Shown here in pieces: positions 31,623 through 61,153 of a DNA stretch of 64,000 nt. Below the pieces are notes generated by a model. That model did not search any database. It was given only the letters and a program-made list of their open reading frames with translations, and was not told the DNA's origin. Every line of letters begins with the position of its first letter. The first letter of the stretch is position 1. Made by a program: the position numbers and the translations under genes. Source of the stretch: Quercus robur (lineage: Eukaryota; Streptophyta; Magnoliopsida; Fagales; Fagaceae); the NCBI RefSeq assembly GCF_932294415.1, contig NC_065536.1:51348354-51412353 (forward strand). Reading direction: 5' to 3'.

Positions 31623-34600
31623 TCAACTCACACCACGGTATATTGCACCAGGTCGAAGATCATCCATACTATCAATGTTTCGATACCCATCAAGCTCCCT
31701 TAGACATGACCAGCCTCGTTGAGAAAGAAAATTACGGTAATCATCTTCAGTGTAAAAAATCTTATCTTCAGTATGCATTGCTGGTATGTGATCGGACTCA
31801 TCATAAAGACACACTTTAACGGCCAATCCTGCAATTAGGAGTTCAACATTTCTGCTTAGCCCCAACCAAAAAAATTGCTCAGCATAAGGGGAAAAAGATA
31901 TTTACAACTCTTCCAGGTTATTGTCGACCTGTTAAAGTTATTATGCTGGGTTAGGGAATGCGGCTATAGGGAACATACTTCATTAGAAAGATCCAATTTC
32001 GTAACAGCACTACAGCTCTTGAAAAGGTGAAACAAAAAGAAATGTGATAATTAATCCCATCAATAAAAGCTGCTACCTTTCAACTTTTATTTTTTTGGGG
32101 TGATCCTTTTCTTAAGAAATATTTAGAATCATAATGACCTTTATGAAAACCACATATAATTGTACCTTCATCAAGATGAAGCATATAATTCCCCAAAGGC
32201 ATATCCCGATCAAGGCTTCGGATTATCTGATCCTCATCCTCCAACCAAAACGCACGTTTGGTTCTCAACCTGAAAGCGCATCTTATTGCCTCCTTGATGG
32301 CATCTGTGCTGCCATCAATACCTATCCTTCTAGTGTAATCACCCCACTTGACTGATATTACCCTCCCACAATATGACTGACTCTCCCCACCTGCAAGTAA
32401 GGGAATAGAGAACTATAAAGTCAACATAAAGAAATCATTTATTAATTGTCCTCTCAAAAAAAAAGAAGCCAAAGGCTCATGATCCATAGTAGTGGCCTTG
32501 ATCTCACTCACTTAGGCAGGTCATACAGAGGACATTCCACCCATAAACAAAATGTTCTTACTATTAACAAAATGATACTCATCCACAGAACACAACTTGA
32601 AGGAGAAGTCACAAATAAAGATGTCTGTTAAGATAATTTCAAAACAGTCAGATTAACTGCAAAGTTACCATTTCCAGGGGTTTCTCTCCAATTCCAAGGA
32701 GGAACACCACTTGCTGCAACTGCATCAGCTGTGGTAATGGCAAGAGGATGTCCATCATGATCCAAACGTCTCTCAAGATTGAGTGTTGGCCTGCCAGTAG
32801 CTGCACATGAAAGAACTTAAATGGGAGGGGAAAACATTTTTCTTTGAGATACATAGATAACAAGGAAAACTCTCTCTCCCAAAACAGGAAAAGTACATAA
32901 TAATAATTATTATAAAATAAAAATAAAAAAATAAAAGGCTGTGCAAAAGTATCTAAACGACCAGAGATACATATAATTCAGATGATTGCATTGTGTCAAA
33001 GTATTCAGGTCTCGGCTGTATGATATAGTTAGGTAAGTATCAACAAAAGACTGAACTCTGAAGTAGGCAGTAGTATCGTCAAGCGTCTGTCCTCTCTATT
33101 GGACCTTAATAGACTGTTCTATGGATTATTGAAGTGGACTAGACCTAAACAACAAATCAACACAAGTAAAGAAATTGTCTACTCAAAACTTAGAGAAACA
33201 TAGAGAGAAGAACTAGGAGATAATCAAGAGAACTTTCGCAATACATTTTAACTACCCTCCAATAAAGTTTGTCTCAAGTCAGGAAATGGAAAATGGTGTT
33301 TGCATTGAGGAAAGACAACAGAAATGCCGATTACAAATAGTGGTATTGCATCTGTATATCCATGCAGAAAATCAAGTTCACTCAATATCAAACTAGGTAA
33401 GTGTAAGTCCATAAATCATTTACCCCAATATAGCTAATTCTTATCCTCTTTGCTCTCATTTCTCAATTTCTTCTATTTTCATTTATAAGGGTATTTGTTT
33501 TTAGGGGAGAACGGAACCGGGCATAAGGAGCTTCAATCGCTATTATACCAACTCGCTCATTTATAGTATAGAGTTGAAAAAACAAAAGAAGCAGCCAATG
33601 ATGACAAAGAAACTTTTTCTGTAAAAACTCAGATCAGCATTATGTGTAGCTGTCATCAAGTGACAATGGTAGACCAAAGAATAAGTGGCTGATATGAAAT
33701 GAGCTCTTTTTTAAACTAAACTTCCAAAACCCAGATTTCTTGTCTCAACATGCGACTAATTCTTCAATGATAGTTGATTCATTACAATTATTTGTAATCA
33801 CAACTTTAAAAGAGTTTTGTATCTTGGCAATGGGTAGAGAATACTTCACACTTCCTTTAACATGAAAAGCTCAGCATCCACAATAAAATAATATAATTCA
33901 AAGCTAAATGATTGTTTATGGTAGTGGTGGTGATTTCATCCAATATATATTTTCTAATATATTTTAAGTGAGGGAGGGGGAATTCAAATGCTAGACGTTT
34001 TCCATTGAAAATGCTCAGAAATGACACTTGACCTAAGAGGTCATTGGCGATTCCATCCAATATATAGCCATATTTTATTGTAGACTAAAATTCAAAAAAC
34101 AATGAGCATGTGAACATGCATGTCCCATGCAACAAGAATGGTGTGCAATTTTGATGCGAGAGACGCAAGAAGATTATTATTTAGTATTATTTATGTTTGC
34201 AAGTCAATTGTATTTTTATGTTTTAGGTCCTAGTAATTTATTAGGGTATTAGTATTTTAATTTGGAAGCAAGGTTATTTTTGTAATAAGGCAATTAGAGT
34301 TTCCTAACCAATTAGAACTAGGGTTTAGCAATCCTTTATAAGCAACCTATTGTACTCTATGAAGCACGGGTGCGTTTCCGGATTCGGATGCGGGTGTGGA
34401 ACTCAGCAATTTTTGAAAAAGAAGGGTGTGGGTGCGACGGGGTGCGGCGATTAAAAAATTATTAAAAATATTTTTATTTATATTTTCAATATATTTTTAC
34501 TATTAAAATATACTTAAAAAACACATTACTATGCCTTGATTCACAAAACAAAGAAAGAAGAAGGCAAGAAACACAAAACAAAACACAAAACAAAAAGGAA

Positions 34601-37600
34601 AACACAAAAGAAGCAACAAATATTTAGATTAAAATTGAGGAAGGACAGATTTAGGATGTTTGGGCCTCATTCAAAACCGATTTCGGCTGTTCTAGCATGA
34701 TTCAAAGCCTATTTCGGCCTGTTTCAACCATTTCGGTCGCCAGTCGATATGGCCCAATTCGGCCAATACAACCCGATTCTGGCCGAATCGGCCCGGTTCG
34801 GCGCGAATCGAGCCGAGTTGGCGCAAATCTGTGAAAAAAAAAGAGCTCAAACGCGGCACCAGTGCGCGGGCATCCACGTCGGACTTCGATGCGGCACCCT
34901 CCCAGGCCGCGTCTGTGCTTCATAGATTGTACTCCTTGAGAAGATAGTAGATATTTTGATGAATGAAAAAAATGGTTGTTTGATCTTTCTTTGATCTGAT
35001 GCTGACTCCTAGCGGTTTCCCCACTTGGTGCCGACTCCAAGCAAGGCCTAAGTGCTGACTCCTAGGTCATCTCTTTATTTTATTATTTGTTTCAATTTTG
35101 TTCTGGTTGTCTTACATCATATTTGGGATCAGAGCAAACACCGATCTGTTGAAGCAACACCGCAGGAAAGAACCAGAAAATATCAACCAAAAAAAAAAAA
35201 ATTTCGTTGCCGTGTTTCTCATCCCATCAAATCACAATACCCACACAAAAGCCAACCACCATAAAGGAAACCAGATCCAGAAAACCTATAACCCACTCCA
35301 CCAGAACAGTACCGCAAGAATTCGTTAATACCGATCTCACCCCGTCGATCCAAAGCCGCTGCCCACAGCCATCACAAGCTGCCAGAAGGGCCAGCCACCA
35401 CAACCACAACACTTGTCGGAAGCCTCAGCCTCACATGCCGCTGGTTCTACTGCAACGCCAATCCTGCATCTATCCAATCTCATGAAGTAACCCACTGGCC
35501 TGTCTAAATTCCCCTATTCCCCTTCTTTAGCCATTTACGTGACCTACTTGATCTGATTAACCTTAAACACATCTGACCCGACCCAAAGACAGCCCATCTT
35601 TTGCCTTAGCCTTTACTGTCCCAACCCAATTTCGAAAAAAATAAAAATAAAAACCTTAATTAGACCAAATTGTCCCAACCCATTCAACCTACTGAACCCA
35701 GTAACCCAAAAAAAAAAAAAAAAAAAAACCAGCCATCAAAACCAATTAAACAAATAGCCCAGTCCTATACCCATCCACTGCAAAACCCACCCTGCCTCAA
35801 TTTAAATAACATATAAGCAGTCATATTAACCATTAAACCCAGAAGTCAACCCCCGTGCACATCAAGTGTTCTTCAACTTCACAGAAATTTTCCATATCGG
35901 TGTTTTGTGACTCCAAGTCTGAGCTGAAAATGACTGTCTTTGATAGAGAATTTGAGGAGGAGATTAAGGAGGCTGGGAATACACTCCTTAACCCTCCTTC
36001 CTCCATTGATGATCTCCTCACTCTTCTTGATAAAGTTGAAAATTTGTTAGCATATGTGGAGCAAGAACCATCCAAATCAATGCGAGATGCTCTTTTACCC
36101 TCAATGAAGGCACTAATCACTAATAAACTTTTGCGACATGCTGAAATGGATGTGAAGGTTTCAGTTTTATCTTGCATTATTGAGATTACAAGGATAACAG
36201 CACCAGATGCCCCATATAAGGATGAGCAAATGAAATAAATATTCCAATTGATTTTGGTAGCATTTGAAAATATGTCTCATGTGTCTACTCACTCTTATAA
36301 GAAGGTGGTTTCAATTCTTGAAACCACTGCAAAGGTCAAGTTATGCTTGGTGATGCTGGATCTTGAGTGTGATGCATTGGTTGTTGAGATGTTTCAAAGT
36401 TTCTTAAAGATAATTAGGTCCAACCATCCACCTGCTGTACTTTCAGCCATAGAAACAATTATGAATCTGGTCATAGATGAAAGTGAAGACATTTCCTTAG
36501 ATCTTCTCAGTTCACTTTTTGCTAGTGTAAGAAAGGAAAATCAGACTGTTTCACCTATTTCGTGGAAATTGGGGGAGCAAATAATCACTAGGATTAATGC
36601 CCAGCTAGAAAAGAAAATGGCACCCACTCAAAAACTACCTAGCAAGCTTGAGGGTGCACATGATGTGAAAGTTGAAGTAGTTGAATGTGCTTCTAATCAA
36701 CCCTCCATAGTGCTTAAAGATCTACATCTTGGTGAAGTCGAAGAAGTTAAAACTACATTGTTTCCTATGGTTCATAAGGTTCAAGATGATATTATACTGA
36801 TTCCACACATTGATTTTGTTATTCCAAATGAGTTTGATGTGGTGGAATTCAAGGTTTTTCTTTTCTCTGTGCTCCCTAAGGTGATTCCAGACTTAAAGCA
36901 AGTGTTACTTGTCAACATTCAAATCCTTCAATGTTTTAAAACTCGAGATCGAGTTTTCTCCAACCAGAGGAGAATGATGCGGGAGACGCAAGAAGATTAT
37001 TATCTATATATATATATAAAACCGAAGCCTTGCTTTCTCCACAATTTTCCACATCAGCATTTTTTATTTATATTTTTTAATAAAAAAATAATTAATAAAC
37101 TATTAATCATCTAATAGTGGGCCATAGCTTAAGTTGATCAGGCCATGATAATGATCTAATAGTGGGCCGTAGCTTCTTCAACTTGATATATACCGTAGCT
37201 TCAATTTGATATATATTAGATATATTAAAAAACGTATCTTTCTTCCCCAAAAGCAACCCAATAAAATTCCTGAAACAAACCTAATTAAAAAACCTCTCTT
37301 TCTTCCCCAAAAGCAAACCCGTTAAAACTCCTCAAAAAAATATTTTGCTAGCAGACTAAAGAATCAACGAAGAAACAACAAATCAAGCAAAACAACGCTG
37401 ACCCAAGCACGACCATGGGTGTTCCTCTCTCAAACGCAGAACCAAGCTCGACCATGGGTGCCAACGTTTTCAATCTTCGACCCGGCCGCCATATCAGATC
37501 ATTCTCTCTAGGTATTTCTCAATTAATCTATGACTAATCTCTTTTCCTACTGTCTTCAATTAGGTTTTCTGTCAATTTAGGAATTTCAATTCCTAACCCT

Positions 37601-40503
37601 TTTTTCCTCTCTATTCTTTTTTTGTTGGAGTCAGGGAAACACTAATAGAAAATCAATTTCTACAGGTTTTGTAAGAAAATATTGTGGATATGAATGGGTT
37701 TTGTAGTGGAGATGGTATTGAAGAGCCTCCCAACCCTCAAAATCTGACAACAATCATACAGGTTTTGCCTTATCTTCAAGTTCTGCTTTATTTGCTATTT
37801 AGGTTTTTTTACCATATCCGATTTACCTTAACTTAATCGTCTGTTTGATTGAATAATTATTTGGCTAACTAAAATGCCAGCCTTCTCTGCCTCTTCATTA
37901 TAGAGAAATAGGGAATTAAAAATGTGTTGATGAAATTTTTATTTCTTGCTTTATAATTAATTCTTAATTTGGTTTGTATTCTAGAGTTGATTGTATTTTG
38001 TAGTTTATAATTTTGAATTTGGTTGGAAATTTTTATTATTATTTGTGAATTTGAAATTTAAAGCAGTTGAGTATGAGGATATTTGTAAACCTGTAGTTTG
38101 GCTTTGTGTGTGGTTCTAATATATATCAAATTTCAGGAAGGGGTTACTTAGTATGTGGTTTGACCTATAAAACTTCAATGCTGCTATATCCTCCTCCTCT
38201 CAGGTTCTCACATTTTCTTATTTAGTATTTTAATTCCTTTTTCTATTTGGTTGGAGATTTGTACTTTTCTTTATTTTTTTGTTATTATTAGTAGCCTTGG
38301 TTGGAGTTTCTTAATTCCTATAAGATATTGTTTGAAATACAAAGTGTTTTGGCTGAATTATTATGTAAGCATCCAAATAAGAAGTTGTATAACTGACTGG
38401 AAACTCAGACTCAATTTGTTATTTTCTATTTGATTATTGAATTCCCTGTAGATTTTTTGTTTGGGGTAGGGTTGGAGTAGACTATGTGTATCTGTGGGAG
38501 TCTTTTTTATATCATTATTGGTTTATTAAGTTTAATCTAAACTGTATATGCAATACTGTGGCTCTATTTGGATTTTGAAGTTTATTTTATATCAGAAGTA
38601 TTTGCCATATAAAATATTAGTAGTAAATAGTGTTAGGGTATGAAAATATCAGAACACAAGTACCGTTTTACATATAGTATACCTGGCTGTCTCTGGTAAT
38701 TTAGACTTTGCACATTCGTGATATCATTATAACTACGGTGTGTAGCTCTGGACAGGTGCTTCCAATAATTGGGTTATTGGATTTAATTTTGTGAATTCTT
38801 ATTTGGGTTCATGTATGGCTGCCAATGTCTGAATTCTTATTGTAATTTATGCACGATTGGGTGTTGGTTACCTGAGATTTTAAGTTTATTTTAGGTTTCT
38901 AATTGTGATGGAAATGCCCTGTTTCAAACATATTGTCCTTCATTTCTATTTGCTGGGAAATCTAACTAAATATCTAGCACAAACTTTGTGATATTGATGG
39001 CTGACAGACCGTTATTATTCTACTGTTATAAGTATGAATATTTGATCTAAATTCAATGTGTTTCAAATCTTGCTGTAGTTGCATGAGCCCTTTGTTGCAT
39101 GCCATAAATGTCCTACAAAAATCTTAGAATAAAATGAGAGGTAGCTAACCTAACTTCTATCTAGCACTTCAAGCCTTCAAGAGACAATGGATCCTTTGTA
39201 AATAAATTGAATCTATAAATATTGAAGCTTTAATGTCATGTGTTCTGTGCATTGTCCATACCCTCCTTGCTTAAGAAGTGTATGGACAAATTTATACAAA
39301 ATTTAACTATAAAATTATGAATTGATTGATATCAAATTCAATTTATAGGAAACTATCTTTACCTGTTAGGGAAAGATTACAAACATTAAGATAGATAATT
39401 TTGGGTGGTATTTTATCTGTTGCGAAGTATGTCGTAAAAAGGTGAAATCAAGAGATGAATTTTTATGGTGCGACAATTGCAACAAAAAGGCATCCTTCCC
39501 AATCCCAAGGGGTACACAAAATAAAATGTTTACTTTTAATATTAAAATACACAATAACTAATATGATATTAACATTATATATGTCATTTCTCTTATCAGG
39601 TATAGAATTCAAAAGCAATGTGCAACTCACACTAACATTTGTACTCAAGGAAAACCAAAGGACATATTCAGTGTCTACTACAAAGCAACAAAGGAAGAAA
39701 ATACAAAAAAACACTTTAAAGTTGTCTTTCGATTTATTTTAAATATTGATTAAGTAGTTCTTTAAATTTGTGTTTCATACATTTTATGGATAATTGAGGA
39801 TGTTAAAGATTTAATTCTTCATTTTATTTTAAACTTATGTTTGATTTCTATTTTTTATTATGTAAATTAATGTTTCATATCAAGATTAATATTTCATGTC
39901 AAGGATAGGAAGCTATAAAACTGGAATCCTAATGTACAAGCAAAGAGGAAGATAAAAAGAATAGCTTACATCTTTATACACTAGCTTTCCCGTGCATCGC
40001 ACGGATTAGCGACTAGTTTAGTATTATTTATGTTTGCAAGTCACTTGTATTTTTATGTTTTAGGTCCTAGTAATTTATTAGGGTATTAGCATTTTAATTT
40101 GGAAGCAAGGTTATTTTTGTAATAAGGCAATTAGGGTTTCCTAGCCAATTAGAATTAGGGTTCAGCAATCTTTTATAAGCAACCTATTGTACTCCTTGAG
40201 GAGATAGTTGATATTTTGATGAATGAAAAAATAGCCGTTTGGTCTTTCTTTGGTCTGGTGCTAACTCCAGGTCTACCCTAAGTGCTGACTCCTAGTGGTT
40301 TTCCCGCTTGGTACTAACTCTAAGCAAAGCCTAAGTGCTAACTCCTAAGTCATATCTCTTTATTTTATTGTTTGTTTCAATTTTGTTCTGGTTGTCCTGC
40401 ATCAAATTTCCTTTTTTATTTCCTTTTTCTGCACAACTAAAAACATAATAAAACAAAAACCACTGAACTTAAAGATCCACACTAGTCATGAGCAACCCAA
40501 CCA

Positions 40504-43500: not shown

Positions 43501-44291
43501 AGCAAACACTACACATGGCAATCTCAAGTAACACAAAATATTGTAAGTTATCCCAATCATATACACCCAGATAACACAAATCAGGCATTACCCAATAAAA
43601 CCCACATCCAGAAACACCTATTCAAATCAAATACCTTTACCAAAAAAAGAAAAACTAAAATTCGGGCAATATTCCGCCAAAAACGAAGCTCAAAAACTAT
43701 ACCTTTATCAGAGAATTGCATATAGGTATCAACCTTAGGTGGAGTGGGGCTCTTGTACTGTGCATTCTTACTCCTATCTCTCAAAATCTCTTCAATCTCT
43801 TTGTAATAAGACATCTTAGCAGACCCACTACCTCTATCTTGGTGCTTAGCCTTCTTGAACTCTTTAAGCAAGTTCCTCCACTTGTCGGTGCACATAGTGG
43901 GTGATCGATCGAACCCTTTTTCTCTCATCTTCGACGAAATCTGCTCCCACAAGTGCTTGTTCGACTTCGAAGTGTTGAACAACCCGTCCATTTCTCTGCG
44001 CAGAGAGATTAAGCTACGAGTCTCGTCTTGGACCCACGTCTCGGCTCGCTTCTTGGGAGCCTTGACTTCGACCTCGACTTCATGGTCCTCGTCGCCGCCA
44101 CTGCTGTCGCCGAGAATCATTTGCTGGTGCTGGTGGTGAGAGTGGGCGTGCGTGTGAGGGTGAGGTTGAGGAGCGTGGTGAGGTGGCAGGTCGCCGCCGC
44201 CGCCGCCATTGGAGACGACCTCGATCATCATGTCGCGTGCGCCTTCTTCTTTGTAGAAGTCTATGGGGCGCGGCTTCTCGGACAAGTACAT
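31623..44291 (-). CDS. GT-1: Trihelix transcription factor of the GT-1/GT-4 type
   Basis: Five exons on the minus strand (43703-44291, 40615-40653, 32669-32800, 32166-32390, 31623-31828), all GT-AG and in phase, give 396 codons against about 406 in Arabidopsis GT-1. Residues about 39-57 are His-rich. The trihelix domain is about 83-160 ([57 protein letters not shown]) with the three spaced tryptophans W86, W115 and W138. The conserved C-terminal half includes [52 protein letters not shown] and the end PGAIYRGVS. The family binds GT boxes (GRWAAW) in light-responsive promoters in the nucleus. Exon 2 is only 39 nt and lies between introns of about 3.0 and 7.8 kb. The large intron holds nested transposons but all splice sites are intact. 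GT-1 and GT-4 are close paralogues, so the symbol is approximate. Confidence 0.95.
33932..34066 (-). mobile_element. SINE with 18-bp target duplication
   Basis: Direct repeats GATTTCATCCAATATATA (33932-33949) and GATTCCATCCAATATATA (34049-34066) flank about 99 bases. On the minus strand this insert has a B-box-like CATTTGAATTCCCCC and an AT-rich 3' end. It sits in intron 2 of the trihelix gene just before the LTR element. Confidence 0.6.
34357..34925. mobile_element. hAT-like non-autonomous element inside the 5' LTR
   Basis: The perfect terminal inverted repeats are CTATGAAGCAC and GTGCTTCATAG. An 8-bp target duplication ATTGTACT lies at 34349-34356 and 34926-34933. The sister LTR keeps the empty site near 40188 (CTATTGTACTCC). 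The right half is GC-rich with repeated CGGCC-type motifs; no protein is recognised. With 8-9 bp TSDs a Mutator origin is also possible. Confidence 0.8.
35930..36624 (+). pseudogene. PDS5 (cohesin cofactor) N-terminal sequence captured by the LTR element
   Basis: The translation matches plant PDS5 homologues of the PDS5C/D type: [69 protein letters not shown] and [17 protein letters not shown]. About 230 residues of HEAT-repeat N-terminus are covered without any intron, so capture was through RNA, as expected for an LTR element. PDS5 controls cohesin on chromosomes. The copy is a fossil, interrupted at least once. Sequence from 36625 to 36970 is open but I do not recognise it. Confidence 0.85.
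37003..40016 (+). mobile_element. Helitron inside the 3' LTR
   Basis: It begins TCTATATATATATATAAAAC and ends GCGACTAG, i.e. CTAG, inserted between A (37002) and T (40017) with no target duplication. A 6-bp stem CCGTGC/GCACGG with a 3-nt loop (39990-40004) lies just before the end. The other LTR shows the empty site (GATTATTA then TTTAG at 34172-34183). No Rep/helicase is seen, so it is non-autonomous. It carries an RPA1-like remnant near its 3' end. The ends match the Helitron at 56124-61153. Confidence 0.92.
39403..39650 (+). pseudogene. RPA1-like (replication protein A 70 kDa) OB-fold zinc-finger remnant
   Basis: Bases 39403-39509 read [20 protein letters not shown], then [16 protein letters not shown], with two C-x2-C pairs like the zinc finger of the C-terminal OB fold of RPA1. 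A GT-AG-type gap of about 90 bases leads to RYRIQ from 39600, where the family continues RYRIQ too. Plant Helitrons often carry RPA-like genes that bind single-stranded DNA. Only this short piece survives. Confidence 0.75.
40511..40541. repeat. (TA)n microsatellite
   Basis: About 15 TA units lie in intron 2 of the trihelix gene, 70 bases from the 39-nt exon 2. Confidence 0.9.
40654..43702 (-). other. Intron 1 of the trihelix gene
   Basis: This 3.05-kb intron has no recognised gene or transposon apart from the 85-bp minisatellite at 42938-43190. It is AT-rich and otherwise unremarkable. Confidence 0.8.
42938..43190. repeat. Minisatellite, three units of about 85 bp
   Basis: Copies begin GATGAGATATCCTG at 42938, 43023 and 43109. 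Each holds TTTCTAAACAGAACTAGAAC and GAGCTACATACCCC. The third unit is the most diverged. It lies in intron 1 of the trihelix gene. Confidence 0.9.
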
Positions 44292-44544
44292 GGTGGTGGG
44301 CTTTTGTTTTTTCTCTGATGTAGGTGTTTGTGAAAATGCCTCCGAGAAAGAGAAAGAGAGAGAGAGAGAATTAGATTGAGATGAGGAAGTGGGAGTGAGA
44401 GTAAAAAAAGTTCATTTTGTTGTTGTAATAAGTAAGGGGATTGAAGTTGAGTGCGGTTCTTTTCTCTCTTTTTTTGGATTTGGTTTCACTTTATTGCAAA
44501 CGGTAATTTTGGGGTTTTAGCAAACAAGTGTGTCCTTGTGAGTT

Positions 44545-48358: not shown

Positions 48359-50538
48359 ATGAAGCTCATTCAAGCCGCCTCCACTCAACCCAAAGCTTCC
48401 CATTTTTGGCTTAATAATGGAGGACCCACTTGCATTCTAAGCCCGCCCTCGGCCTTTTCATACACCAAAGTTAATTCCTTTAACTCTAGGTCTCTCTCAG
48501 GTATTAAATCAAACACCTTGCGTTCTTTTTGTTTTTGTTCTTTGCTATTATCTGCTTAATAATTAGTGTTGTTTGATTGTCAGGGATTGGTTTTTTTGCT
48601 TTTGTGCTCATGCCCATTTTAGTTTGTATGATGTATTAACCTCTAATTGGCACTAATGGAAACAAGGGAAGTAATTGCTTGGTTAATTTATCTTATTGCT
48701 TTTTGGTCTGTGGGCTATATTTTGTGAAAACCTTCAATTAGATTAACTTAGCTATGGGTAAGAAAGTTGTTATTTTGGGGGGTGAATAATCTGTTTCTAA
48801 CTATTGAGGGCTGAGGATTATTTTCAGCAAATTTCAATAAGTTATTCTTATCTTTTTTGCAATGTTTATCTGCAAAAATTAGTTGCTTGACAAGTCCTGG
48901 AAATGTCACTGTTAGAGTCAAGTAGTTGATAAGTGCATCAAGTTACGTGACAAAATTCATGTTTGAAAAAAGGTTAGGTGAATTGACATGAAATGATCAA
49001 TTTTTGCCTGTCATTGCCAAGTGTTGACATGTATTTTGCATGGGCCATATGTGACTAAAATTAGAGGCTCTTTTTCCTTTGGAACATGAAAGGTTCAGAT
49101 TCATAGTTTTGGCCTGTATCAATTGGCTTAGTCAAGTATACGCTTTCATTGTTTTAGACTGTTCTACTCCCAGAAAAGGAATTGCATAATGCTGCTGTAG
49201 GATAAGGAATGAGTATTCAATTCTTTACTTCAACACAAAAATCTTTTGCAAATCCTTGCTTATCAAATATGCTTATTTCGATGGAAGGTTGCTTGAGAGT
49301 GAAGAAATAAAAAGACATTTGTCCAGCCTGTTGATTTCATTGACACCCCTTGTTAGCGGTTTAGCAGTGGCATATAATGCTTCCTTTCATATTTATTTTA
49401 GATCAATTATTTGTTTTTATTTTATAAAGTCATTTCTCTATTTCTCTCAGTATGTTGTACTCCAACAATATTATCTTGCATAGGAAGATTTTCCTAAAAT
49501 GTTTTAGGCTAAACTCTTCAACTAAACTTTCAAGCAGTATGTGGCCTTTGTAGGATCCTTCATCAAAATAAAGTTGCTATCAACTGTATGATTATCTCAG
49601 CAATGAGCAATGTTTGTGTCTCTAGACCATATGGCACTCACCATCAATCAGTTTTGTTGCTGTCTCCAAAAGAAAAGCATGGAAATGGAATCCTTAGAAT
49701 CATTTCCACATGCAAGTCAACATTGATCTCTCCAACTGCTCCTCTCATTGGCCGTCCACCCTCATCTTTGGTGTTGGCTGCACAACTTACTCCATCTGAG
49801 GCTCCCCAACGTTCAGAAGAATGGTTTGCCCTTCGCAAGGACAAGCTGACCACAAGCACTTTCAGCACTGCCTTGGGCTTTTGGAAAGGAACCCGTCGCT
49901 TTGAGCTCTGGCATGAGAAAGTCTTTGAATCAGAAGTAGAAATTGTGGAAACTTCTAAAAAGTGTGCCATGGAGTGGGGTGTGCTCAATGAAGCAGAGGC
50001 TATAGACCGGTACAGAAGCATCACAGGTCGTGAGGTGAGCTCATTAGGGTTTGCAACTCATTCAGAGGAGAGTTTTGGTTGGATGGGTGCTTCCCCTGAT
50101 GGTCTTCTTGGTTGCTTTCCAGGAGGTGGGATCCTGGAAGTAAAGTGCCCATATAACAAGGGGAAGCCCGAGACTGGTCTGCCCTGGTCAACTGTGCCAT
50201 TCTATTACATGCCTCAAGTGCAGGGTCAAATGGAGATAATGGACAGAGAATGGGTTGATTTGTATTGCTGGACGCCAAATGGAAGCACAATATTCCGTGT
50301 ACATAGAGACCGTGCTTATTGGGATATGATACATGCCATTTTACGAGAATTTTGGTGGGAAAATGTGATTCCTGCCAGGGGGGCTCTGTCACTGGGGAGC
50401 AAAGAAGCGGCCATGTCATATAAGCCATCATCTACACACAAACAAACAGGACTTGCCATTGTCAAGAGTCTGAAGTTGGCTAGTGAGTCAAAGTTGTTTT
50501 GTAGGGAGATTGCTGGTCATATTGAATTTTATAGGTGA
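48359..50538 (+). CDS. YqaJ/lambda-exonuclease-like nuclease, PD-(D/E)XK fold, probably organellar
   Basis: Two exons (48359-48500, 49601-50538) with GT-AG borders join in phase to 359 codons. Exon 1 (47 codons) is rich in Ser, Asn, Thr and basic residues with no acidic ones, so it looks like a plastid or mitochondrial transit peptide. The nuclease domain is about residues 115-310: QRSEEWFALRKDKLTTS (about 117), AMEWGVLNEAEA (170-181), GASPDG with D204, the catalytic pair E217 and K219 in LEVKCPY, and MPQVQGQMEI with conserved glutamines (243-247). Members of the YqaJ family digest DNA 5' to 3' in phage recombination. Plant homologues are annotated as restriction-endonuclease-like and their role is poorly known; organelle DNA turnover or repair is my inference. 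All core residues are present, so it looks active. Two short uORFs precede it. Confidence 0.93.
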
Positions 50539-56480: not shown

Positions 56481-57303
56481 ACCCTGGCTTCTCCGATTCT
56501 CTGCCATTTCTTTTCCACGGCAAGACCCACGGCAAGACCTAACGATCCTTTCACGATACCGGACATGCCTTCTCCGATTATCTGTCATTTTTTTTCCACG
56601 GCAAGACCCACCAATCCGACCCAACAGACCGATCCTCTGCCTCTCCCTTTCCACGGCAACACCCAACAGCCCGATACCGATCCGACCCAACAGACCCAAA
56701 TCCAATTCGCTCAATTTCCACTCTTCCCCAGCCCATCGCTCAATGCAACCGACCCAGCCCGTCGAGACCGGCCCAAAGGTATTGTCTTATAAACCTATAA
56801 TATATATATTTTTTTTCTGAATCCGAATTCTATATAGATTAGGACTCTATAACTCTATATATATAAAACTTTCACGATGCTTTTTTTTTTCACGGCTATT
56901 CAATTTGTAGGTATGTTTTATATTTTTTTTTCACGGCTATTCAATTTGTGTGGAAACTGAGCTAATTATAGAATTGTAGTTTTTGGGGATGTTTTAATTT
57001 GTAGGTATGTTTTAGAAACACATTGATTTGTGTAGGCAAATTGTAGTCTTTGAAATTGTTCAATTTGATTTTTCTGAAGATTTTTAGTTATATGTTTTTG
57101 ATGAGTATGAGTTCAATGTTGTTACTGCTATTTGGTTGCTTAGAAATTGGTGAAAATACAGATGGGAATCAGTTCAAATATTTTTTTTTTTTTTGGGGTT
57201 TATGGACTTTTTGGGATGTTCAGCTGTTTTTCTAATGTGGGTGTGGTTTGTCTCTGATGGGTATGAGTTCAATGCTGTTTATGCTGTTTGGTTGCTTAGA
57301 AAT

Positions 57304-58143
57304 TGTTGGGAAAAAAAGATGGGCATAAGTTCAGTTTTTAATTTTTATGTGTTCATGGACTTTTTGGGATGTTCAGTTGTTTTTCTGATGTGGGTGTGGT
57401 TTGTCTCTGATGGGTATGAGTTCAATGTTGTTATTGTTTGGTTGCCGAGAAATTGGTTGGAAAAAATATGGGCATAAGTTCAATTTTTGTTTTTTAATGT
57501 GTTTATGGACTTTTGGGATGTTCAGTTGTTCCTTTAGAATCATTAAGAATATTTTGGTAATTAATTCAGTTTGAATCTGGGAGAGTTCATACTTGCGCAC
57601 ATAATAAAGACGAAAAGGTTTAGAACTTTCTTATACATGATCTTTCATTTAAGGTTAAAAAAAAAAATTAACTAGGATGTTTTTTATGTTGTTAGGCATA
57701 AAGGAACTTAGGCATATTATAGCTGTTGGGAAAAAAAGATGGGCATAAGTTCAGTTTTTAATTTTTATGTGTTCATGGACTTTTTGGGATGTTCAGTTGT
57801 TTTTCTGATGTGGGTGTGGTTTGTCTCTGATGGGTATGAGTTCAATGTTGTTATTGTTTGGTTGCCGAGAAATTGGTTGGAAAAAATATGGGCATAAGTT
57901 CAATTTTTGTTTTTTAATGTGTTTATGGACTTTTGGGATGTTCAGTTGTTCCTTTAGAATCATTAAGAATATTTTGGTAATTAATTCAGTTTGAATCTGG
58001 GAGAGTTCATACTTGCGCACATAATAAAGACGAAAAGGTTTAGAACTTTCTTATACATGATCTTTCATTTAAGGTTAAAAAGAAAAATTAACTAGGATGT
58101 TTTTTATGTTGTTAGGCATAAAGGAACTTAGGCATATTATAGC
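57304..58143. repeat. 420-bp tandem duplication, almost identical
   Basis: Units 57304-57723 and 57724-58143 start GTTGGGAAAAAAAGATGGGC and differ at only a few bases (for example in the A-run near 57660 and 58080). Shorter versions of the same unit (TTTTTGGGATGTTCAG, GAGTTCAATG.TGTT) recur at 57100-57300, 60263-60420 and 60700-60885. Confidence 0.92.
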
Positions 58144-59149
58144 TTTCTCATAAGAGTTAGTAATATCAGTTGAGTTTTAAGGTTTTGTTGGCCTTTATAA
58201 GTTCTTCCAGAGATGGTGGGTTCTTATATTATTTTTATTGTTTTTAATATATATATTGGGATCTGAAAATAGAAAAATAGAATGTAGTTGAAAAAAAAAA
58301 AAAATTTTCAGGTCAGGGTGTTTTGATGAAATTTGATTTTGATGAAGGAATCTGGGTAAGAATGCTTTAGTTTGGGGTATTCAAGTTAAATTAGGGAGTG
58401 GGTTTTTATATTTTTTTCAATAAAAAGAAAACAAACCACTTGAAATACACGGCAAAGGCTTGCAATACTCCCCAAAAAAAAAAAAAAAAAAAAAAACTTG
58501 TGATATAGAGATAAAAAATAAATAAAAAATAAAAACAAAAAACAAAAAAACTTACCACACAGATATAGAACCGCAAGCACATAGAGAAAGAAAATCTGCC
58601 ACCATCAGATTGTTGGAACCAGCACCGGTATTTTTATTTTTAATTTTTTCCAGATTTGGGGATGCAATGTTACTTTTTATTGAGTTTTTTGTTGTTGTAT
58701 AGGTATAGATTTGATTTTGGCTTTCATTCGTTTTTGTTTCGGGTTTTTGAGTTCTCCATGAAATTTTCATTGGGATCAAATAAGTATAGAATTGAATATT
58801 ATGCTGATATTTCTTTTTTCTTTTTCAATCTTATTTTAGGTTTTTTTATCAGAACCACATGCACACAGAGATATAGTTTGGAAGGCACAAAGAGAGAGGC
58901 CGCATACCCATTACCCCATAATCGGTAAAGTTATTGCTTTTTTATTTATTTATTTATTTTTTGATTGAATATGATTTAGGTTTTAATTTCTTGGTTGGAT
59001 TGATTTAGATTTGGCTGTTCTGCCATGTAGGAAAAAAAACACCCTTAAAAAACAAACATGCATAAAAAACAAACTTGAAACGCCACACTCAAAGAAAATC
59101 GATGCATCTATTCGGACCCAAAGAAAAACGATGTATCTGTTGTTATTTC

Positions 59150-59595
59150 TGTGATGTATGTCCATGGGCTGTATTTCTGCTGCTACATATTTTGTTTTCT
59201 GCAGAACAAGTTCAGGATTTTCTGCATAATCTGTGCTTACAGGCGGGTTGAGTGTAATATCTGTTGCTATTTCTGTGATGTATGTCCATGGGCTGTATTT
59301 TTGCTGCTGCATTTTCTGCTTTCTGCAGAACAAGTTCAGGATCTTTTGCATAATCTGTGCTTACAGTGGGGCTGAGTGTAATATCTGTTGTTGTTTCTTT
59401 GATGTATGTCCATAGGCTGTATTTCTGTTGCTGCATATTTTGTTTTCTACAGAACAGGTTCAGGATTTTCTGCATAATCTGTGCTTACAGAGGGGTAATT
59501 GTAATATCTGTTACTGTTTCTGTTCCTGTATTGTATGTCCATGGGCTGTATTGATTTTGTTGCATTTTTTTTTTCTGCAGAACAGGTCTTTGTTC
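59150..59595. repeat. Minisatellite of about 124 bp, four units
   Basis: Units start at GATGTATGTCCATGGGCTG or a variant near 59153, 59277, 59401 and 59533. Each holds TTTTCTGCAGAACA, a splice-acceptor-like block, and ATCTGTGCTTACAG. The last unit is the most diverged. Confidence 0.85.
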
Positions 59596-60262
59596 CCTTG
59601 TATTTATGCTTACAGGGTTGTTATGTGTTTGTACATGTATTTCCCTTTTATCAAATATTTACTTTAAAGCATGTGTATCCAATTACAAAAATGATATGGG
59701 TATTTTTTGTTCCTTGATTTTGAGCTCCACTAGGCTTTTATTTTATTTTATTTTTATGAGTGCCTCTTCTTGCATGTATGGCAGTAGGAAATGATTTTGT
59801 AATGAGTCTCCCATCATTTGTCCTGTAGATCATACAAACATGTATATTCATGTCCCCATGTTAATTCTCTAAAATCATATTTTAGAAGTGATACAAATTC
59901 TATTTTCATGTTTTTTAAAAAGGTCATAATTGGATATATTTGTAATTAAAGGAATAAAGTAAACATACTGTAATGATGCAGCAAGTGAATTTCACTGATT
60001 AGAGATATAGGGAGAAGAGTGATATTCAAAAATATTGCAAAAATCATTCTCAACTTACATCCTTATTGGTATAGTTTTTTACTCAACTCTATAGCCCTGC
60101 CTCTAAAAGGCTTCAATTCTTCCTACTAAAATTGATTTATTTTTTTTAAAAAAAACTATTAATATACATCACAATATCAAACTCTGTTGCTGCATATTTC
60201 TAAGTTCAATTTCTAAGTTCAATTTCTAACTATTAATATACATCACAATACCAATTTCTAAG

Positions 60263-60885
60263 TTCAATTTTTTGTTTTTTAATGTGTTTATGGACTTTTG
60301 GGATGTTCAGTTGTTTTTCTAATGTGGGTGTACTTCGTCTCTGATAAGTATAAGTTCAATGTTGTTTCTACTGTTTGGTTGCTGAGAAATTGGTGGGAAA
60401 ACAAAAGATGATGATGTGTTGGGTATTGGGTTCTGAGAAAAAATTTGGAAAATTAAACTAATTTAAATTCCCAAGTCTTCAACTTTATGTGTGAGACAGC
60501 TGAGTTCAATTCAAAATATATCTAGCACAAATGTTTCATTGTTTAGCTCAGCTTAACGGTTTAAGTTTCAATTTTTCAATTTTTAGTTCCAAGTATTCAG
60601 CTTTATGTGACTTTGGAGTTGAGAAAACTGAATTTTATTCAAATTTTATCTAATACAATTGTTTGGCTCGGTTCAAGTGATTAAGTTTCAATTTTTATAT
60701 AAAATATGGGCATAAGTTCAATTTTTGTTTTTTAATGTGTTTATGGACTTTTGGGATGTTCAGTTGTTTTTCTAATGTGGGTGTACTTCGTCTTTGATAA
60801 GTATAAGTTCAATGTTGTTTCTACTGTTTGGTTGCTGAGAAATTGGTGGGAAAACAAAAGATGATGATGTGTTGGGTATTTTCAA
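60263..60885. repeat. Direct repeat of about 160 bp, two copies
   Basis: Copies at about 60263-60422 and 60715-60880 share TTTATGGACTTTTGGGATGT, GTGGGTGTACTTCGTCT and AAACAAAAGATGATGATGTG. They are relatives of the 420-bp unit in the same Helitron. Confidence 0.8.
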
Positions 60886-61153
60886 TTTTAAGTGATTAAT
60901 ATTTGCATTGGTATGTTATTCAGATTCAATAATTGTGTCTTTAAAATCAAGAGGAATTCAAAAACAATATCTAAACTTCAACGTTTTTTAAATATAATGA
61001 ATGCATTCAATATTTAGTGGAAGATATCAAATAAATGAAATTGAAAATTAAGAATGTGCTACCAGAGAATCAATGCTAAATTCCAAAACCTAATGTCACA
61101 TCATTTGGAAAAAATTCGTAGCTTTCCCGTGCATCGCATGGGTTAGCGACTAG

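Follow-up and report, generated by a model that had tools for sequence, protein, structure and literature searches.

How did the beginning of a host PDS5 gene come to lie, stripped of its introns, inside a small long terminal repeat (LTR) retrotransposon, and has the element made any use of the protein? The question is raised by a 64,000-nucleotide stretch of DNA (C3:51348354-51412353 of a 786-Mb genome; hereafter the window), for which a reading of the letters alone, the original prediction, had proposed an LTR element carrying an intronless piece of PDS5. We found a complete small LTR element spanning 34152-40404, with paired LTRs, TG...CA ends, AATTT on both sides, a primer site, and a polypurine tract (Table 1), and the PDS5 piece lies within it. 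Judging from comparisons with its relatives, it looks like one copy of a large non-autonomous family in one branch of which PDS5 replaced gag, in frame with the element's own tail.

With its 3' LTR split in two by a Helitron-type insertion, the element extends as far as 40404, a correction to the original prediction. The 5' LTR is interrupted as well, by a terminal inverted repeat (TIR) element that is Mutator-like by structure only. The two predicted flanking signals are present: the primer site at 35124 agrees at 11 of 12 positions with the initiator methionine (iMet) type of sequence, and the purine tract AGAGGAGAA ends at 36974. The interior measures 1.86 kb, and its sole forward frame of more than 150 amino acids, on which Pfam was run, is the PDS5-tail open reading frame (ORF); the element is therefore non-autonomous. 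That ORF starts at the ATG at 35930, and its PDS5 part does not stop at 36624 after about 230 codons: it is 240 codons long and is joined in frame to the element's own tail at 36650.

An in-frame TAA at 36236-36238, which the original prediction lacked, is private to the window copy among 35 aligned rows, comprising the window and 34 of the 38 other loci that we fetched (the split copies L041, L042, L043, and L045 were left out). The ORF halves on either side of this stop both match PF20168 in Pfam, with scores of 60.6 and 77.7 bits against a curated cut-off of 27 (E = 9e-17 and 6.4e-22), and the open frame of another copy, L016, reaches 156.9 bits. Scores so far above the cut-off rule out a chance similarity to PDS5. 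The captured piece covers profile positions 1 to 203 of 1053 and is thus not a full-length PDS5. In L018, whose frame is naturally open, the encoded sequence could be aligned with known structures of PDS5 (for human PDS5B, 5hdt, E = 8.9e-15); a PDS5 search in plasmids returned one chance match only. With a nonsense mutation of its own and a transposon later inserted into each of its LTRs, the copy in the window is dead.

A likely source of the piece is present in the same genome. A gene at C5:34.8358 Mb (L050) has two exons that match 386 nt of the window copy at 88% identity, and the intron edges of that gene, equivalent to positions 36031/36032, 36235/36236, and 36417/36418, are all absent from the element; no annotation was used to place the exon edges of L050, which rest on the match and on GT/AG signals. 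Since the exons are this similar and the introns are missing, the likely origin of the piece is a spliced transcript of L050 or of a closely related gene, in keeping with the intronless host gene transduction that had been proposed. An ordinary intron-bearing PDS5 locus is ruled out by the absence of introns and by the LTRs on both sides. Two other PDS5 genes, L047 (C38:34.95 Mb) and L048 (C5:70.03 Mb), have matches that break at the same two places; they were rejected as donors, since only 27 to 44% of the amino acids are identical where they match. Besides these three genes there is a PDS5 match at C2:48.63 Mb, and a downstream donor exon sought in L052 was not found.

What the PDS5 piece displaced is suggested by a PDS5-free sister element, L049, which shares its LTRs, the first ~80 nt of its interior, and its tail with the window copy. 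The two LTRs of L049 are 98.9% identical, and it has a 5-bp duplication (GTTGC). The ORF in its PDS5 slot matches gag only weakly (PF03732, E = 0.034 over the entire piece and 0.0063 for the domain, under the curated cut-off), and its total length of 2758 bp is too short for pol. Because the same LTRs and tail enclose a gag-like ORF in L049, PDS5 appears to have taken the place of gag. The claim that the element is otherwise free of gag and pol agrees with the interior of the window copy and does not extend simply to the family, in which L049 has its gag-like ORF. That the gag match lies below the Pfam cut-off weighs against this reading; a PDB search with the same ORF gave no matches at E values up to 1. 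Gag-like ORFs of the L049 type occur in at least 40 places (best 40 of 117 candidates scored). The tail (36640-36973) is more widespread than PDS5 (best 40 of 223 candidates scored), with a sharp start at 36650-36651 in 20 of the 40 tail rows scored. Across the 38 fetched PDS5 loci, the tail shared with L049 starts within 1 nt of 36650 in 31 and within 17 nt in 4; no match to it was found in the other three (L013, L042, and L046). In one PDS5 copy, L026, a gag-like stretch (2064-2499, 82% to L049) lies upstream of PDS5, and this copy is possibly an intermediate or a recombinant.

The original prediction had raised the possibility of a multicopy family sharing the capture, and a genome search bore this out. 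The PDS5 piece is present in at least 39 places including the window (41 match rows; best 40 of 59 candidates scored), which rules out a one-off assembly error, and most of these places match at 88 to 97% identity. All 38 other places were fetched with their flanks. Paired LTRs were found at 30 of them (all except L010, L013, L016, L031, L034, L039, L042, and L045), and the order LTR-PDS5-tail-LTR recurs in many places; the piece has been mobilized with the element, as expected of a transduced gene. Exact 5-bp duplications stand beside TG...CA at, for example, L014, L017, L018, and L035. The LTR alone gave 636 candidates in the genome, the best 40 of which were scored.

Identity between paired LTRs runs from 80.5% (L044) to 99.5% (L021), and is at least 99% in L017, L018, and L021. 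The corresponding divergence, 0.005 to 0.23, spans a wide range of insertion ages, roughly 0.2 to 9 million years at the substitution rate of 1.3e-8 quoted in the available text of PMC5818461, a rate that may not be that of the host. A 27-bp in-frame insertion near the PDS5 N terminus, shared by L015 to L019, L021, L023, L024, L026, L029, L033, and L038, marks one subfamily and resembles a local duplication. The three loci L040, L044, and L046 are confined to 0.22 Mb of C40 (24.84-25.06 Mb); because they are close together and have related flanks, they are probably segmental duplicates of one old insertion. Another PDS5 match is located nearby, at C40:25116027.

The PDS5 piece is also carried by a second LTR lineage. 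In L025, L032, and L034, PDS5 of 90 to 92% identity sits in a different LTR and tail background (tail 68 to 70% to the first). The second-lineage tail occurs in these three PDS5 loci and, at 87 to 89%, in 10 further places outside the listed PDS5 places. The one of these ten that was read, L051, contains a homologue of the L049 gag-like ORF (31% amino acid identity, E = 6e-21), and this homologue matches PF03732 with an E value of 0.001. At synonymous sites, the distance between the two lineages is 0.14 for PDS5 and 0.43 for the tail. The smaller value implies that the common ancestor of the PDS5 module is more recent than that of the elements carrying it, so that the module must have passed from one lineage to another, most simply by template switching or recombination.

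We propose that a non-autonomous, gag-only LTR lineage acquired the first ~240 codons of a spliced host PDS5 RNA, most likely through template switching during reverse transcription, and that the piece replaced the gag domain and joined the C-terminal tail of the element in frame. An autonomous partner would provide, in trans, the Gag and Pol needed for packaging and copying the RNA of this chimera. The chimera would then have spread to the 39 or more places, and recombination would have carried it between two or more diverged LTR lineages. This analysis did not identify a gag-pol partner, which counts against the scheme; for the origin and spread of a gag-replacing transduced host domain as outlined here, we are nevertheless fairly confident. 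In the groups compared, the PDS5 frame stayed open in the source copies and, because it did so, the element probably drew some benefit from the PDS5-tail protein that the frame encodes. That the protein has a function of any kind we hold more tentatively, at just short of an even call.

Evidence for frame retention comes from the changes that distinguish groups of copies. Of the 269 private changes in the PDS5 part, 36 were disabling (frameshifts or stops), and of the 71 changes diagnostic of a subfamily none was (Fisher's exact test, P = 2.8e-4). This count covers 28 of the 35 rows (L013, L037, L038, L039, L040, L044, and L046 were left out) and uses groups that we drew from the 27-bp insertion and the tree, a choice that could favor the result. 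In the tail, to 36949, the figures were 10 of 119 private and 0 of 73 diagnostic (P = 0.014). Group-marking indels are all multiples of three: 27 bp in PDS5, and 21 and 3 bp in the tail. Against the donor exons, the ratio of nonsynonymous to synonymous differences (pN/pS) was 0.35 to 0.44 (P = 0.002 to 0.018) in 8 of 15 rows, namely L018, L021, L010, L027, L022, L020, L035, and the window. Between open copies, the corresponding rate ratio (dN/dS) in PDS5 was 0.22 to 0.42 in 8 of 15 pairs (null P = 0.000 to 0.047, among rows chosen for openness). The remaining open pairs were non-significant: five involve L032 (0.49 to 0.56, P = 0.08 to 0.25), and two are very close and uninformative. Constraint on the source lineages appears real but modest, short of proof, and we read the captured domain as being under weak selection.

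The same capture and spread could have occurred with an inert PDS5 piece, a neutral passenger whose open frames reflect a short time since an open ancestor. We regard this as possible but doubtful, and several observations lean toward it and away from a selected protein. The count of disabling changes omits stops that are shared without being fixed, at 36083 (4 rows), at 36542 (3 rows), and at 36944 in the tail (3 rows), as well as a 2-bp deletion shared by L012 and L033. The donor test was non-significant for L016 (0.53, P = 0.081) and L032 (0.52, P = 0.057) and for the outlying broken copies L037, L039, L040, L044, and L046 (0.51 to 1.10), and all donor comparisons include the host-gene branch, itself constrained. 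Under the null, the more distant open pairs would remain without stops in 10 to 22% of trials (P = 0.10 to 0.22), which is not rare. The codon-position test of shared versus private variants was flat (P = 0.76, 30 rows), and the excess of diagnostic differences at third positions is weak (27 of 65, P = 0.10). Four copies (L039, L040, L044, and L046) share stops at 36563 and 36602 near the end of PDS5, so that a lineage with a truncated frame may have transposed. The motif APDAPY is exact in only 11 of 35 rows and not kept in the other 24. The tail gives no sign of constraint among open copies (dN/dS of 0.72 to 4.03) and carries a stop at 36950 in 11 of 35 rows; at least 340 codons from the ATG are kept in only 5 of 35 (L010, L016, L017, L018, and L032). 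A passenger would not be expected to leave diagnostic changes free of disabling ones, 8 of 15 rows with a low pN/pS relative to the donor exons, or 8 of 15 open pairs with a low dN/dS in PDS5 and no such signal in the tail.

If the PDS5-tail protein does act, one way it might do so is by analogy with PDS5 elsewhere. In other organisms, an APDAP loop in the N-terminal region binds a YSR motif of Wapl, and an N-terminal surface is predicted to meet the Wapl C-terminal domain (available text of PMC10656103). In Arabidopsis, the accessible part of PMC6465247 reports that WAPL1 and SWI1 bind PDS5A residues 1-809, its N-terminal half, a stretch far longer than the piece captured here. Given such binding, a decoy or tether is thinkable: the module could have been selected to engage WAPL, SWI1, or other PDS5 partners, altering cohesin, for instance in meiosis, to the benefit of the element. 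We speculate along these lines only cautiously and consider it unlikely. If true, the module would have been useful enough to spread between LTR families.

A role at the RNA level, in which the element spreads PDS5-like RNA or small interfering RNA that tunes or silences host PDS5, is improbable in our estimation. Every one of the 35 rows does contain 6 to 69 of the 366 donor-exon 21-mers, with longest exact runs of 26 to 56 nt; such a role alone would not explain the retention of frame in diagnostic changes. Repeated, independent captures of the same gene by two LTR families might be read from the two LTR and tail backgrounds, and we judge them very improbable: L025, L032, and L034 have the same ATG region and the same 36650 junction as the first lineage, and divergence in PDS5 is below that in the tail. 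LINE (long interspersed nuclear element) copies are usually 5' truncated, and a LINE-made retrocopy into or around which LTRs were inserted later, while it would account for an intronless piece, was already disfavored and is scarcely credible for one that has its 5' end with the ATG and lacks its 3' end, shows no poly(A) after 36650 in the window, joins the tail at a single position in 31 of 38 loci, and recurs in the order LTR-PDS5-tail-LTR with element-wide duplications.

Table 1. Features of the PDS5-carrying LTR element and of the insertions nested in it (window coordinates).
Feature	Position	Strand
Target site duplication AATTT, left copy	34147..34151	
5' LTR, TG...CA, enlarged by nested TIR element	34152..35119	+
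Nested 568-bp TIR element in 5' LTR; ~10-bp terminal inverted repeats (TATGAAGCAC...), 9-bp duplication ATTGTACTC	34358..34925	
Non-coding leader, ~800 nt; first ~80 nt common to gag-type sister element L049	35120..35929	+
Primer binding site, 11/12 to iMet-type sequence	35124..35135	+
PDS5 N-terminal HEAT region, 240 intronless codons; slot holds gag-like ORF in L049	35930..36649	+
PDS5 codons for APDAPY (Wapl-binding loop in other organisms)	36200..36217	+
Native ORF tail, ~108 codons to LTR edge, in frame with PDS5; also in PDS5-free elements	36650..36974	+
Polypurine tract AGAGGAGAA	36966-36974	+
3' LTR, first part	36975..37002	+
Helitron-type insertion (~3.0 kb) nested between A and T; TC...CTAG with 3' hairpin	37003..40016	+
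3' LTR, second part	40017..40404	+
Target site duplication AATTT, right copy	40405..40409	

Elsewhere in the window, tRNA and Rfam scans of its whole length gave no matches. One frame of the Helitron-type insertion (37003-40016) resembles an RPA-type zinc finger. Long ORFs are located at 43581-44411 (-) and 49513-50538 (+), resembling a trihelix-type transcription factor and a YqaJ-type nuclease, respectively, and long direct repeats lie at 57093-60894, one pair being 99.8% identical over 421 bp.

Among known systems, the closest in kind is Bs1 of maize, an LTR element with a transduced piece of an H+-ATPase gene, pieces of other host genes, and a chimeric ORF (available sections of PMC13317346). 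In both cases host coding pieces lie in a non-autonomous LTR element and form a chimeric ORF, and here too a host gene piece with its introns removed lies inside LTRs and has been mobilized as part of the element. The family described here differs from Bs1, as far as those sections describe it, in its 39 or more places, its two LTR lineages, the replacement of the gag slot, and the signal of frame retention. TR-GAG elements consist of LTRs and gag, without pol (Chaparro et al. 2015, as cited in the accessible part of PMC5818461). The PDS5-free sister L049 resembles them in having LTRs, a gag-like ORF, and a length (2758 bp) that leaves no room for pol; its gag match is below the cut-off, however, and the branch represented by the window copy has a PDS5 domain instead of gag.

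Genes captured by LTR elements number 672 in rice and 1,343 in sorghum, according to the available text of PMC3726574. There, as here, host genes lie in LTR elements, some under purifying selection and some expanded with the element; a gag replacement common to two LTR families is not described in that text. Our literature searches, mostly outside the subscription literature, found no paper on LTR capture of PDS5, and a search for gag replaced by a host gene found none. In the present family, one host domain occupies the position of gag in two LTR lineages and has been amplified across insertions of widely differing ages, from source copies with open frames. Some copies can still be read, which is unusual among host genes captured by such elements, and the question of whether a captured host protein can serve a retrotransposon becomes approachable in this family.

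The review PMC7264820, in its accessible part, describes transduced ORFs as occurring in one or a few copies, and antisense additional ORFs (aORFs) of plant LTR elements as having no relatives outside the elements. The PDS5 ORF is like an aORF in being an extra ORF found across a family, and unlike the antisense aORFs in that it lies in sense and has a host donor. A host-derived ORF present in dozens of copies and in two LTR lineages crosses the line drawn in that part of the review.
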